Shown in pieces: positions 25,619 to 28,666 of a stretch of 64,000 bases of DNA. Within the stretch, counting starts at the first letter, position 1; every line of letters starts with the position of its first letter. Below the pieces are notes generated by a model. The model was not told the origin of the DNA and made no database searches. It saw only the letters and a list, made by a program, of their open reading frames with translations. The DNA comes from Fodinibius sp. Rm-B-1B1-1 (GTDB lineage: Bacteria > Bacteroidota > Rhodothermia > Balneolales > Balneolaceae): NCBI RefSeq assembly GCF_038594945.1, contig NZ_JBCFYD010000001.1:992001-1056000 (forward strand), in the 5' to 3' direction. Both the position numbers and the translations under genes were made by a program.

Positions 25619-25665
25619 AGTTCCAAATATAAAGCGTTTTGCACCCTATATCATTCAAATAAAAA

Positions 25666-25698
25666 AGCCCTGCCAGAGTCCAAAACTTTGGCAGGGCT
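25666..25698 (-). terminator. Terminator belonging to the decayed POT gene
   Basis: Arms AGCCCTGCCA (25666-25675) and TGGCAGGGCT (25689-25698) form a perfect 10-bp stem. On the minus strand it ends in TTTTTTA. It lies 23 bp downstream of the stop codon of the POT remnant and upstream of mnmE on the same strand, so it separates the two. Confidence 0.8.
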
Positions 25699-25720
25699 AA
25701 CTAACAAAATGTAAGAAGTA

Positions 25721-25855
25721 TTATTTTACATCGCCCATGAGTTTTTGAACAAAAGGACTTGCAATAAGGGCAATAATTCCACCGCCTCCAACAATCATGG
25801 CAACCCACTAGAAGAGGTTGCAAATCAGTTTAATATCTTGGGGTGTTGGCTCCAT
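25721..25855 (-). pseudogene. 3' remnant of a POT-family peptide transporter gene
   Basis: Reading the minus strand, the last 28 codons give IVGGGGIIALIASPF and end in QKLMGDVK, nearly identical in pattern to the C-terminus of the intact POT transporter at 26798 (LVGGGGIIALLAAPP and KRLMGDVE). A TAG interrupts the frame 29 codons before the end, just after NLF, where the intact protein has LFW. Only 45 codons remain; the other 580 or so are missing. The matching terminator downstream shows that a complete gene once ended here. An ATG at 25855 begins the residual frame but is probably coincidental. Confidence 0.75.
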
Positions 25856-26108
25856 AAATTTGTGTTGGAATTGTGAAATGTGAGTTCGATTGTCCGATTA
25901 CTTATGCTCTTTATTGGTAGAGCTATGTTTATGAAGACCACAGTGAGATAAAATTTGGATTTCAAAGCTTATCCAAAAAATAACAAAAGAATGTTGGTGT
26001 AAGAAATATCAAAAAATATAACTCACTGTATTTATTTGTTCAGTAAGCTTCCCATTCTTACTAGATCTCGGTTTAAGACAAAACCAATTTTAATTTGATC
26101 AGATTAAT

Positions 26109-26285
26109 ATGAATAATCTAAAAGAAATAGGCTTGACTGAAATTAATAAAAAACAAAAAAAAATAATTAATGGAGGAGCCCACCCACTAGTTTGGATAGT
26201 AGTAGGTCATGTAGCCATAGAAGCTGCTAATGACTGGGAGGCACATAAAGAGGCTTTCAATGAAGGGTATGAATCAGCTCAATAA
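26109..26285 (+). CDS. Double-glycine-leader peptide 1, bacteriocin-like precursor
   Basis: A 58-residue peptide. The leader MNNLKEIGLTEINKKQKK is followed by IINGG (residues 19-23), a double-glycine cleavage site of the type cut by C39-peptidase ABC transporters. The 35-residue core starts AHPLVWIVVGHVAIEAA and continues with an acidic, amphipathic end (NDWEAHKEAFNEGY). A hydrophobic first half followed by a charged helix fits small class II-type bacteriocins or signalling peptides of Bacteroidota. It shares the start MNNL, and the DNA ATGAATAATCTAAA, with the next peptide gene 21 bp downstream. No C39 transporter, immunity gene or modification enzyme is in the window. The gene starts within AT-rich DNA, lower in GC than its surroundings. 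Confidence 0.7.
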   Translation: MNNLKEIGLTEINKKQKKIINGGAHPLVWIVVGHVAIEAANDWEAHKEAFNEGYESAQ

Positions 26286-26306
26286 CCAAAAATAAAAAAT
26301 ACCACT

Positions 26307-26507
26307 ATGAATAATCTAAATGATGAACTCGATAACCTTAATTTATCGTCTTTAAATAAATCAGAATTGAGTAAAACCTTTGGTGGCGATAAAGTTTCAT
26401 TAGCTGTTTTAAGAGCAATGGGTTATATATGGGGAGGTGTTACTCACGAAACAACAGAAGCTCAAAACTCTCCAATTACAGGTCCAGGCGGAAATAAATA
26501 TATGTAA
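26307..26507 (+). CDS. Double-glycine-leader peptide 2, bacteriocin-like precursor
   Basis: A 66-residue peptide. The leader ends SLNKSELSKTFGG (residues 15-27), with a hydrophobic and acidic spacing (L-x-x-x-E-L-x-x-x-GG) typical of C39-processed leaders. The 39-residue core has a hydrophobic, glycine-rich segment LAVLRAMGYIWGGV and then a polar tail ending GPGGNKYM. It is co-directional with peptide 1, 21 bp apart, and is followed after 27 bp by a terminator, so the two form one small operon. The two-peptide arrangement recalls class IIb bacteriocins, but activity is inference. Its tail motif recurs in the remnant at 26632. Confidence 0.7.
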   Translation: MNNLNDELDNLNLSSLNKSELSKTFGGDKVSLAVLRAMGYIWGGVTHETTEAQNSPITGPGGNKYM

Positions 26508-26534
26508 CTGGACAATTTTATAATCGTAAATTTT

Positions 26535-26563
26535 AAAGCTGCCAAGTACTTGGCAGCTTTTTT
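26535..26563 (+). terminator. Rho-independent terminator after the peptide genes
   Basis: Arms AAAGCTGCCA (26535-26544) and TGGCAGCTTT (26551-26560) form a perfect 10-bp stem with a six-base loop, ending in six T residues (26558-26563). It closes the peptide operon. Confidence 0.88.
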
Positions 26564-26631
26564 AGTATATAATGTAACTCATTCCCTAATTACTTTCTTT
26601 AAAAGCTTAGAGTGTGTATGGCTGCAGTTAG

Positions 26632-26730
26632 TGTTATCTTCGAAAGTTAGTAGCAGGAGCTACAGATCCTCCTACTACTGATTATACAGAATCATATATA
26701 CATGGTCCTAATGGAACAAAGTATAGGTAA
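26632..26730 (+). pseudogene. Remnant of a third GG-leader-type peptide gene
   Basis: From 26641 an open frame of 29 codons reads RKLVAGATDPPTTDY, then TESYIHGPNGTKYR and a stop. The ending TE....GP.G.KY matches the end of peptide 2 (TEAQNSPITGPGGNKYM). The frame has no start codon; a TAG lies just upstream at 26629, and no GG leader is found before it. It is best read as the 3' end of a third, decayed or partly deleted paralogue. Confidence 0.5.
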
Positions 26731-26741
26731 TCTTTATATAA

Positions 26742-26775
26742 GCGCCCCTCATTTTAAAAATAGAGGGGTGCTTAT
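26742..26775 (-). terminator. Terminator for the POT transporter
   Basis: A hairpin with arms AGCGCCCCTC and GAGGGGTGCTT (about 26741-26775, one G-T pair) and an AT-rich loop lies 23 bp past the stop of the minus-strand POT gene, the same spacing as for the decayed copy. Confidence 0.65.
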
Positions 26776-26797
26776 AAGATAACTCAGAAAAGAGAAT

Positions 26798-28666
26798 TTA
26801 CTCTACATCTCCCATCAAGCGTTTAACTGGCGGTGCTGCAAGCAGAGCTATAATTCCACCACCACCAACCAATAGGGCTACACTCCAGAATAAGCCGGAT
26901 GGAGCAAGTGTTTCAAGTTGACCCGCCATGAGCCCGGCAAATAAATTACCAAGTGCAGCAGCTACAAACCATACGCCCATCATCTGACTGACAAGACGTT
27001 CTGGGGCAAGCTTCGTCATGGAAGAAAGTCCAACAGGAGACAGACAAAGTTCACCGCATGTATGGAGGAAGTAAGTAACGATGAGCCAAGCTGGAGCAAC
27101 AGAGTTGGGGCCTGTAGCATTAGCGGCTCCCCAAGAAATCACAAAAAAGCCTGCCGATAATCCCAGAAGTCCTAATCCGAACTTAACAGGAATCGAAGGG
27201 TTTGCATTACGAGCTGCTAACCATGTCCAAAACCAGCCAAATACAGGTGCCAATATTACAATAAAGAGCGGATTAATGTTTTGAAGCATACTTGCCGGCA
27301 TTTCCCACGTGGTGGTTAATTGGGTAGAAACGTAATAGGCGAAGCCAACCACCAGCAAAGAGAGACCAGCCACTCCTGCTTTACCGACCCACCAAAGGTT
27401 ATCACGCTTAAAAATACTCCAGCTCAAATAACCAAGGGGGAGTGCCAGGATTAAGGCAGGAAGAAATGCACCAACTTGGCTAATCAATCCATAGGGGCCG
27501 AAAGTACGATCGGTTTCTCGTTCTGCAAATAAATTGAGAGAAGAGCCGGCCTGCTCGAAGCCGCTCCAGAAAAGGGCTGCCAAAATAAAAAGCCAAAAGA
27601 TGACAAAAAGCCTTTTCTTTTCTAAAGAAATTTTTAGGCTTGGCATGAACATCCTTACCGTGTTAATGATTAAAAATGCTATTACGGTAATGCCAATTCC
27701 TATTTGGTATGAAAACAAGGTATATCCCCAATTAAACGAGGCTATATAATATCCAGCACCAGCTAACAGTAATACAGCTCCAATCCATTTTGAGTCATTA
27801 ATCAAATAGGCGAAAAAGATCACTGCAATTAAAGCTACGCTGGTACCTAATGTTTGAGCAAGTTGTTGCAATGAAATCCCAATAACTCCAGTATTCATCA
27901 GAATACTAAACAGAACAATGATTGTCGTACTAACTGCAGTGGTTATCCAAAAGTTTCGGCTGCGTTTCGAAAGTACTGAATCACTATCATCTACCTTTAG
28001 CTTTCCGGCATCGCCAAGATTTTTTTCACCAATTTTATAGGAAATAAGTCCAAGAAGCATACCGAATCCGGCCAGTGAAAATCCCCAATGCCAATTATAT
28101 CCTTCACCAAGAATTCCGCAAAGTGTTGGGCCTAAAATGGCACCGAAGTTAATGCCCATGTAAAAAATGGAAAACCCGGCATCACGACGGGCTCCACCCT
28201 CTGGATAAAGCTCACCAACCATAGAGCTTACATTGGGTTTTAAAAGTCCGGTTCCTATTACAATGAAAACAAGTCCCAAGTAAAAGGAGATTTCATCGGG
28301 AAATCCCATGAGGGGACCAGCCATTGTAAAGTGCCCTAACGCAATAATACAACCGCCAACAAAAACACTTTTCTTTTGGCCCCATAGTTTGTCGGCTACC
28401 CAACCGCCGGGTAAAGCTAAGACATATACAAAGAATGTATAAAGTCCATATATAGCTGTGGCACGTCCATCGCTGAATCCAAGACCGGGATTGTCACCTG
28501 TTACGGCCGCTGCCATAAATAATACAAGAAGAGCGCGCATACCATAATAACTGAAGCGCTCCCAAAATTCAGTAAAAAATAATGTTGATAAACCTCGAGG
28601 ATGGCCAAAAAAATCATTTTTCTTAGCGCTATCGGCCTCTGTTGCCCCTGTTTGTTCATTTGCCAT
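26798..28666 (-). CDS. POT family (PTR2) peptide/proton symporter
   Basis: 622 residues with 12-14 membrane segments. POT signatures are clear: the helix-1 motif FFTEFWERFSYYGMRALLVLF (in part), the second signature in the segment GTGLLKPNVSSMVGELY near 137-153, and FSIFYMGINFGAILGPTLCG. These carriers import di- and tripeptides with protons. The C-terminal helix LLVGGGGIIALLAAPP is the segment duplicated in the remnant at 25721. Together with the hut genes downstream and the M20 peptidase it suggests peptide-based nutrition. The gene is divergent from hutU, with about 200 bp between the starts. Confidence 0.92.
   Translation of the reverse strand: MANEQTGATEADSAKKNDFFGHPRGLSTLFFTEFWERFSYYGMRALLVLFMAAAVTGDNPGLGFSDGRATAIYGLYTFFVYVLALPGGWVADKLWGQKKSVFVGGCIIALGHFTMAGPLMGFPDEISFYLGLVFIVIGTGLLKPNVSSMVGELYPEGGARRDAGFSIFYMGINFGAILGPTLCGILGEGYNWHWGFSLAGFGMLLGLISYKIGEKNLGDAGKLKVDDSDSVLSKRSRNFWITTAVSTTIIVLFSILMNTGVIGISLQQLAQTLGTSVALIAVIFFAYLINDSKWIGAVLLLAGAGYYIASFNWGYTLFSYQIGIGITVIAFLIINTVRMFMPSLKISLEKKRLFVIFWLFILAALFWSGFEQAGSSLNLFAERETDRTFGPYGLISQVGAFLPALILALPLGYLSWSIFKRDNLWWVGKAGVAGLSLLVVGFAYYVSTQLTTTWEMPASMLQNINPLFIVILAPVFGWFWTWLAARNANPSIPVKFGLGLLGLSAGFFVISWGAANATGPNSVAPAWLIVTYFLHTCGELCLSPVGLSSMTKLAPERLVSQMMGVWFVAAALGNLFAGLMAGQLETLAPSGLFWSVALLVGGGGIIALLAAPPVKRLMGDVE

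Follow-up and report, generated by a model that had tools for sequence, protein, structure and literature searches.

A tandem pair of double-glycine-leader peptide genes in Fodinibius that may be a displaced cassette linked by a 20-nt box to a distant exporter locus

The DNA of Fodinibius sp. Rm-B-1B1-1 analysed here (the window, 64,000 nucleotides, G000:C1:992001-1056000) carries two tandem genes for peptides with double-glycine (GG) leaders, and the 20-nt box upstream of them recurs at the single C39 exporter locus recognised in the same genome (G000; 6 contigs, 97.7% complete). The pair is real; it is ordinary in kind, consisting of GG peptides with a C39 exporter, and unusual in layout. 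The reading that we favour, with moderate confidence, is that the pair represents a displaced, partly decayed two-peptide GG-leader cassette of Balneolales, class IIb-like, exported in trans and co-regulated with the exporter locus. An earlier note on this DNA had proposed a two-peptide bacteriocin-like or signalling system with its exporter elsewhere in the genome, a proposal supported by an exporter some 1.0 Mb off and by the conservation of leaders and tandem order. New beyond that note are a broken HTH gene, the upstream box, a fossil of another peptide-2 gene downstream, and the missing immunity gene.

Results

The tandem peptide pair

The two genes and the hairpin behind them are arranged as follows.

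26109..26285, + strand: peptide 1 (P1, P0001), 58 aa; GG leader of 23 aa ending IINGG, core of 35 aa
26307..26507, + strand: peptide 2 (P2, P0002), 66 aa; GG leader of 27 aa ending KTFGG, core of 39 aa
26535..26560, + strand: terminator-like hairpin 3' of peptide 2, with an 11-pair stem followed by a T-rich tail

The ORFs are separated by 21 bp and share their first 14 nt (ATGAATAATCTAAA). Three of the four hydrophobic leader positions in P1 and all four in P2 agree with the GG-leader rule, and cysteine is absent from both peptides. The coordinates, ORF lengths, gap, common start, leader ends and core sizes given in the earlier note all check, and the shared terminator that it described corresponds to the one hairpin listed above; its "hydrophobic cores" holds for the first half of each core only, since the P1 end is acidic and the P2 end reads GPGGNKYM. 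Inspection by eye for GxxxG-type motifs found GYIWG in P2 and only AIEAA (AxxxA), with no GxxxG, in P1. The AlphaFold models of the two precursors contain low-confidence helices (mean pLDDT 65 and 56).

The GG ORFs were counted under a fixed rule that required an ATG start, a length of 45-80 aa, a leader of 15-30 and a core of at least 20 residues, and at least three of four hydrophobic leader positions; GG ORFs at most 60 bp apart were scored as a tandem pair. The real window yielded three GG ORFs and one tandem pair, and 60 dinucleotide shuffles of it gave a mean of 1.3 single GG ORFs (maximum 4) and 0 tandem pairs, which indicates that single GG ORFs occur at about chance level and the tandem pair above it. 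With homologous pairs in other genomes lending further support, we reject the idea that the pair is a chance product. Recent duplication, as the common 14-nt start might suggest, is not supported either, because M[ND]NL starts recur in the GG leaders of relatives and the identity is thus weak evidence for it.

A single exporter locus about 1.0 Mb away

A whole-genome search of G000 detected a single Peptidase_C39 match at E <= 0.001, which scores over cut-off (E 3.0e-37) and is located at C1:14670-15062, some 1.0 Mb from the pair. The surrounding stretch (L002, C1:4001-24000) encodes, in order, a LuxR-type regulator (C1:12367-13044; GerE match, E 5.2e-9), a GG peptide, HlyD, a C39-ABC protein (C1:14643-16847), a small HTH protein (C1:16860-17168; sub-threshold HTH_11 match, E 0.0041), a tandem pair of GG peptides (59 and 61 aa, C1:17248-17638), and a protein of 69 aa (C1:17722-17931) in which one TM-like segment was recognised. 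The C39 peptidase contains the stretches QHDVTDC, HYVVIY and MDP, which we take to be its catalytic motifs. The exporter that the earlier note placed elsewhere in the genome is therefore accounted for, with the C39-ABC protein, an HlyD-type partner and further GG peptides in one locus, and absence of a C39 protein is excluded.

By eye, the C-terminal part of P1 resembles that of the first exporter-linked peptide (EAFNEGYESAQ vs GAYQSGYDNAQ). Own-genome searches with P1 alone or P2 alone returned self-matches only, even at E <= 10; the kinship of P1 rests on a three-sequence P1 profile, which scores the first exporter-linked peptide at E 0.0066. Kindred GG leaders also adjoin C39 genes in relatives. 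Because the genome has one recognisable C39-ABC/HlyD exporter, its catalytic motifs are there and leaders of this kind accompany such exporters, we infer that both precursors are probably exported in trans and cut after GG by this protein, despite the 1.0 Mb between them.

Homologous pairs in relatives

At E <= 0.05, matches to P1 were found in six of 58 genomes and matches to P2 in three, the own genome being counted, and in G039 and G054, which belong to another family of the order, the P1 and P2 matches stand side by side. Homologues of P1 occur in G039, G054, G028 and a Bacteroidales MAG, and homologues of P2 lie directly after peptide 1 in G039, G054, G028 and G001. In G054, P1 and P2 are followed by genes for a small membrane protein, HlyD and C39-ABC, and in G028, at a contig end, by those for a small membrane protein and HlyD. 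The Bacteroidales MAG (L105:7977-8648), outside the class of the window genome, likewise encodes P1, P2 and then a membrane protein; some 2 kb off, on the opposite strand, there is an HTH homologue. With the HTH gene in front, the series HTH, P1, P2, small membrane protein is found in L002 (own), L054, L060, L062 and L014. The leaders and the tandem order are thus kept in some related genomes, a check for which the earlier note had called.

Profiles of P1 and of P2 were built from three sequences each (for P1, own, G039 and G054), so that three matches of each are given by construction, and were run against 4655 start-to-stop ORFs of at least 25 aa from the window and 26 loci. The P1 profile gave 10 matches at E < 0.01, all of them GG peptides, the best beyond its own rows being G028 P1 (2.3e-12). 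The P2 profile likewise gave 10, all leader peptides, nine of which end in GG and one (in L062) in AG; G028 P2 scored 1.3e-5 and G001 P2 3.2e-4. The profiles A3 and A4 include their own strong matches, and the further matches that they gave are weak, with E from 5e-4 to 0.01. P1-type peptides are rare, with strong matches in 4 of 244 genomes, all four of which are rows of the profile used, and this counts against the favoured reading. A genome-contig scan with the P1 alignment recovered three loci, one of them from the Bacteroidales MAG; scans of genome contigs with P2 alone, of viral contigs with the P1 alignment and of plasmids with P1 returned nothing useful.

C39 matches were present in 25 of the 58 genomes (42 matches in total), and in 20 of these genomes they were over cut-off. 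G028 (L014, L058, L065) had seven Peptidase_C39 matches, the most of the 58 genomes listed. Twenty stretches around C39 matches, from 16 of the 25 C39-bearing genomes, were examined, and a GG pair of this kind was absent from many of them (e.g. L046-L052, L055, L065), which also speaks against the favoured reading.

Immunity and the possibility of a signal

A small membrane protein follows the pair in relatives, and in G001 its place is taken by a CAAX-protease-like protein (PF02517, E 5.6e-18); CAAX-protease-like proteins have been linked with bacteriocin immunity. Beside the window pair, no TM-like ORF of at least 30 aa was found in 25619-26800, and the membrane protein of G039, G054 and G028 has no good homologue in the window's own genome (best E 5.65); both results weigh against the favoured reading. 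The pair being without a local immunity gene, either the 69-aa protein of the exporter locus protects the cell or protection is unnecessary. The latter option is raised because bacteroidetocin producers, in the relevant part of PMC6671954, are inhibited by their own toxin and lack self-protection.

One could also envisage that the peptides are signals rather than toxins, being exported and then sensed by the exporter-locus regulator, with the box as its target. The lack of a recognised immunity gene at the window pair would fit such a scheme, as would the LuxR-type regulator and small HTH protein at the exporter locus and the match of P2, sub-threshold at E 0.044, to a model for peptide pheromones. 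We nevertheless consider it unlikely, since the fixed two-peptide order and the membrane or CAAX-protease-like gene of the relatives fit toxins with immunity better, LuxR-type homologues were found in 5 of 30 sequences searched and not in the boxed loci L060, L062 and L063, and the ORF lists of the window and exporter loci, read by eye, showed no sensor kinase.

Remnants at the mnmE-POT site

The pair lies between mnmE and a POT-type transporter gene (26798-28666), and is flanked by the following remnants and by the box.

25715..25820, - strand: 3'-end remnant of a POT-type transporter gene, an allele that differs from the resident POT
25802..26045, + strand: HTH gene fossil, frameshifted and with in-frame stops; its counterpart precedes peptide 1 at exporter loci
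26025..26044, + strand: 20-nt box ACTGTATTTATTTGTTCAGT, candidate operator, inside the decayed 3' end of the HTH fossil and 64 bp before the first ATG
26632..26730, + strand: fossil of the 3' end of another peptide-2 gene, found with tblastn; stop codon at 26728-26730

The C-terminal 27 residues of the POT remnant are identical at 25 of 27 positions to the G004 and G002 POT proteins and at 19 of 27 to the resident POT, and at the nucleotide level the remnant is 83% identical to G004 over 106 nt. With exporter-locus HTH proteins as tblastn queries, the HTH fossil was detected at 25873-26043 (E 2.5e-11 with the own HTH and 8.7e-12 with that of G001); from 25802 its N-terminal part is recognisable in a different frame (E 9.8e-5, G010 HTH as query). 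The downstream fossil matches over 26632-26724 the intact peptide 2 that G001 carries at the same chromosomal site (E 6.5e-12, 68% identity, 31 aa).

The mnmE-POT interval was compared in 12 genus genomes, with the mnmE of G007 outside the stretch compared, and a GG pair turned up in just two of them, the own genome and G001, the pair of G001 being of a different type. The interval measures 105-126 bp in four genomes, 409 bp without a listed ORF in G010, and about 1 kb with other ORFs in G003 and G009; it is longer, with other genes, in G011, G005 and G007. This site (L085, L087-L091, L093), ranging from 105 bp to several kb with differing gene content, may be an insertion hotspot.

From these remnants, the window pair looks like what is left of a larger cassette consisting of HTH, peptide 1, peptide 2 and a small membrane protein. 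The resemblance of the POT remnant to G004 and G002 more than to the resident gene, together with the fossils at the site, suggests that the cassette arrived with foreign flanking DNA or was stacked by recombination at mnmE-POT. In the reading that we favour, a cassette of HTH, box, peptide 1 and peptide 2 landed between mnmE and the POT gene; that its HTH gene has decayed, with the box and both peptide ORFs still intact, is shown by the sequence.

A bleaker interpretation is that the locus is a dying relic, with the HTH gene broken, immunity gone and the second peptide-2 gene a stump, in which decay has merely not yet reached the two ORFs. Fossils on both sides and the POT remnant are in keeping with this, as is the lack of a GG pair at the site in 10 of the 12 genus genomes, four of which have just 105-126 bp there. 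The intactness of both ORFs, their leaders, the terminator and the box argues otherwise, as does the degree to which the box has been kept (19 of 20 positions identical to the exporter-locus copy, vs 139 of 223 aligned positions for the rest of the HTH fossil), and we judge a relic to be quite improbable, somewhat more so than a signal.

The 20-nt box

The box was recognised from an exact 21-nt match upstream of both mnmE-POT GG pairs, own and G001. A search of the 12 genus genomes with up to three mismatches gave 20 matches, 10 of which had two or fewer. Nine of these 10 lie upstream of two consecutive GG ORFs, namely at the own orphan pair, the own exporter locus, two sites in G003, one in G010 and four in G001; some 178 bp separate the two ORFs in G010 and at one of the G003 sites. 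No GG pair lies downstream of the tenth match (G005) or of any of the ten with three mismatches. Two of the boxed pairs in G001 (L158:4471-4865 and L159:4685-5122) are further pairs away from its C39 locus, and by eye have larger membrane-like ORFs downstream.

When an 18-mer was searched with up to one mismatch in 244 genomes of the class, 21 matches were obtained vs 3 for a backward control. All eight exact matches precede GG pairs, as do two of the 13 one-mismatch matches (the G001 exporter and an exporter-less pair in G039); a third (G095) sits where an HTH gene ends, and the ORF that follows it is truncated by the edge of the contig, with no GG seen, and the other 10 of the 13 have no GG pair after them. 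A matrix made from nine genus sites was run on 16 cassettes, seven of them training cassettes, and the box was the best match of the locus in four of the nine others (G039 twice, G052 and G030). It was not found by the matrix in five of the 16 (G054, G028, two in G007 and the Bacteroidales one), and in L014, L053 and L105 the HTH gene is present with no box at the pair; both observations run counter to the favoured reading. In 11 boxed cassettes, searched up to 200 bp, the distance from the box end to the first ATG is 58-87 bp, with the ATG set at MDNL in two. The half-sites ACTG...CAGT form a dyad, and divergent copies, roughly CTGTA-N8-T.CAG, also suggest one. A conserved RNA hairpin between box and ATG was not supported: against simple mononucleotide shuffles, z <= -2 was obtained for four of 14 upstream leaders, and the window's own leader scored 0.0.

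At exporter loci the box occupies the 3' end of the HTH gene, as the copy in the window does that of the HTH fossil, and it might then be no operator but a scar left by mobility or the last part of the HTH coding sequence; faint HTH traces that adjoin two of the G001 box copies are also consistent with such an origin. This too is unlikely in our estimation, about as much so as a signalling role, given that the box is kept at synonymous positions, in differing frames and where the HTH gene is broken or undetectable, and given the dyad and the narrow range of distances to the ATG. In particular, the end of the HTH gene reads YLFVQ through the box in G000 and G001 and CIYLFS in G003 and G010; conservation merely as the peptide YLFVQ was therefore rejected, and with the box also intact within the broken HTH gene of the window, it seems to be conserved as DNA rather than as coding sequence.

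Returning to the favoured reading, transcription of the pair would probably be controlled through the box by a regulator encoded at the exporter locus, since the box is common to both loci and co-occurs with such cassettes. The most likely candidate is the intact small HTH protein rather than the LuxR-type protein, because L060, L062 and L063 have box and HTH with no LuxR match. The small HTH proteins (L002:12860-13168, with homologues in L054, L056, L059 and L062) have a C-terminal tail that is itself GG-leader-like (e.g. ISADQQRKVGGG), followed by some 11-25 residues.

Family matches

No Pfam or NCBIfam match at E <= 1 was obtained for P1. P2 gave sub-threshold matches to Pfam Bacteriocin_IIc (PF10439; E 0.024, 15 bits vs a cut-off of 27.1) and NCBIfam pheromone_VP1 (E 0.044, 14 bits vs 85), and neither peptide matched TIGR03949. 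The statement in the earlier note that neither core resembles a known bacteriocin thus stands for P1, and for P2 is to be qualified by these sub-threshold matches. When ten aligned peptide-2 sequences (A2) were examined, three matched TIGR03949 (best E 1.1e-6) and five matched Bacteriocin_IIc (best E 0.0045); two of the ten members of alignment A1 matched TIGR03949 (best E 0.045).

Discussion

The pair appears to resemble the class IIb bacteriocins (lactococcin G and lactobin A/cerein 7B families) in its tandem GG-leader genes with a C39-ABC and accessory protein, in the small membrane protein that follows the pair in relatives of the window pair, and in the two differing peptides encoded by adjacent genes and conserved jointly (G039, G054, G028, G001 and the Bacteroidales MAG). 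It differs from them in that the window P1 and P2 are below family cut-offs, no immunity gene was seen at the window locus and the exporter is unlinked; moreover, the relatives are Bacteroidota. Because P1 is without a family match, P2 is under the cut-off and the immunity gene is missing, we claim likeness to class IIb only and not membership. The tandem conservation, the low-confidence predicted helices and the small membrane protein of the relatives lead us to suppose that the two released peptides probably act jointly on the membranes of close relatives.

In Streptococcus mutans, the NlmTE exporter is unlinked to the bacteriocin loci. The scattered loci of that organism, nlmAB and cipB, have PBlpR boxes and use NlmTE as exporter, a layout that, in the part of PMC5295010 devoted to it, is like the one described here: separate GG-peptide loci, a common upstream box and one exporter. 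The S. mutans boxes are driven by a kinase/response-regulator pair and a pheromone, whereas the candidate regulator in Fodinibius is a small HTH protein and there is no known pheromone. The bacteroidetocins, as portrayed in the pertinent part of PMC6671954, are also GG-leader peptides accompanied by a C39-ABC protein in Bacteroidetes. Unlike the window pair, with leaders of 23 and 27 aa and no cysteine, they have leaders of 15-16 aa and at least two cysteines (PMC6671954), and mostly come with genes for a thiol oxidoreductase and a TM protein; the window system has two peptides. Among the open-access matches listed for Balneolota/Balneolaceae and bacteriocin, there was no report of the pair or the box; for one Balneolaeota strain, the section of PMC6243061 on the subject gives 20 proteins similar to known bacteriocins and no antiSMASH bacteriocin cluster.

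With the box as a sequence handle, unlinked peptide cassettes can be assigned to the exporter, and the orphan GG peptides of Balneolales become testable as a regulon. We tentatively suggest, as a possibility short of a probability, that the Balneolales possess a dispersed arsenal of two-peptide GG cassettes. Each cassette would be mobile as a unit, and cassettes would displace each other at favoured sites, mnmE-POT among them; having lost their own genes for HTH, immunity and export, they would be kept alive solely via a 20-bp operator tied to one distant HTH regulator and one exporter. If active, the pair would be a two-peptide bacteriocin-like system of Gram-negative bacteria, and if the dispersed arsenal is true, it would be the Bacteroidota equivalent of the scattered bacteriocin regulon of streptococci, its operator and its class of regulator both being new.
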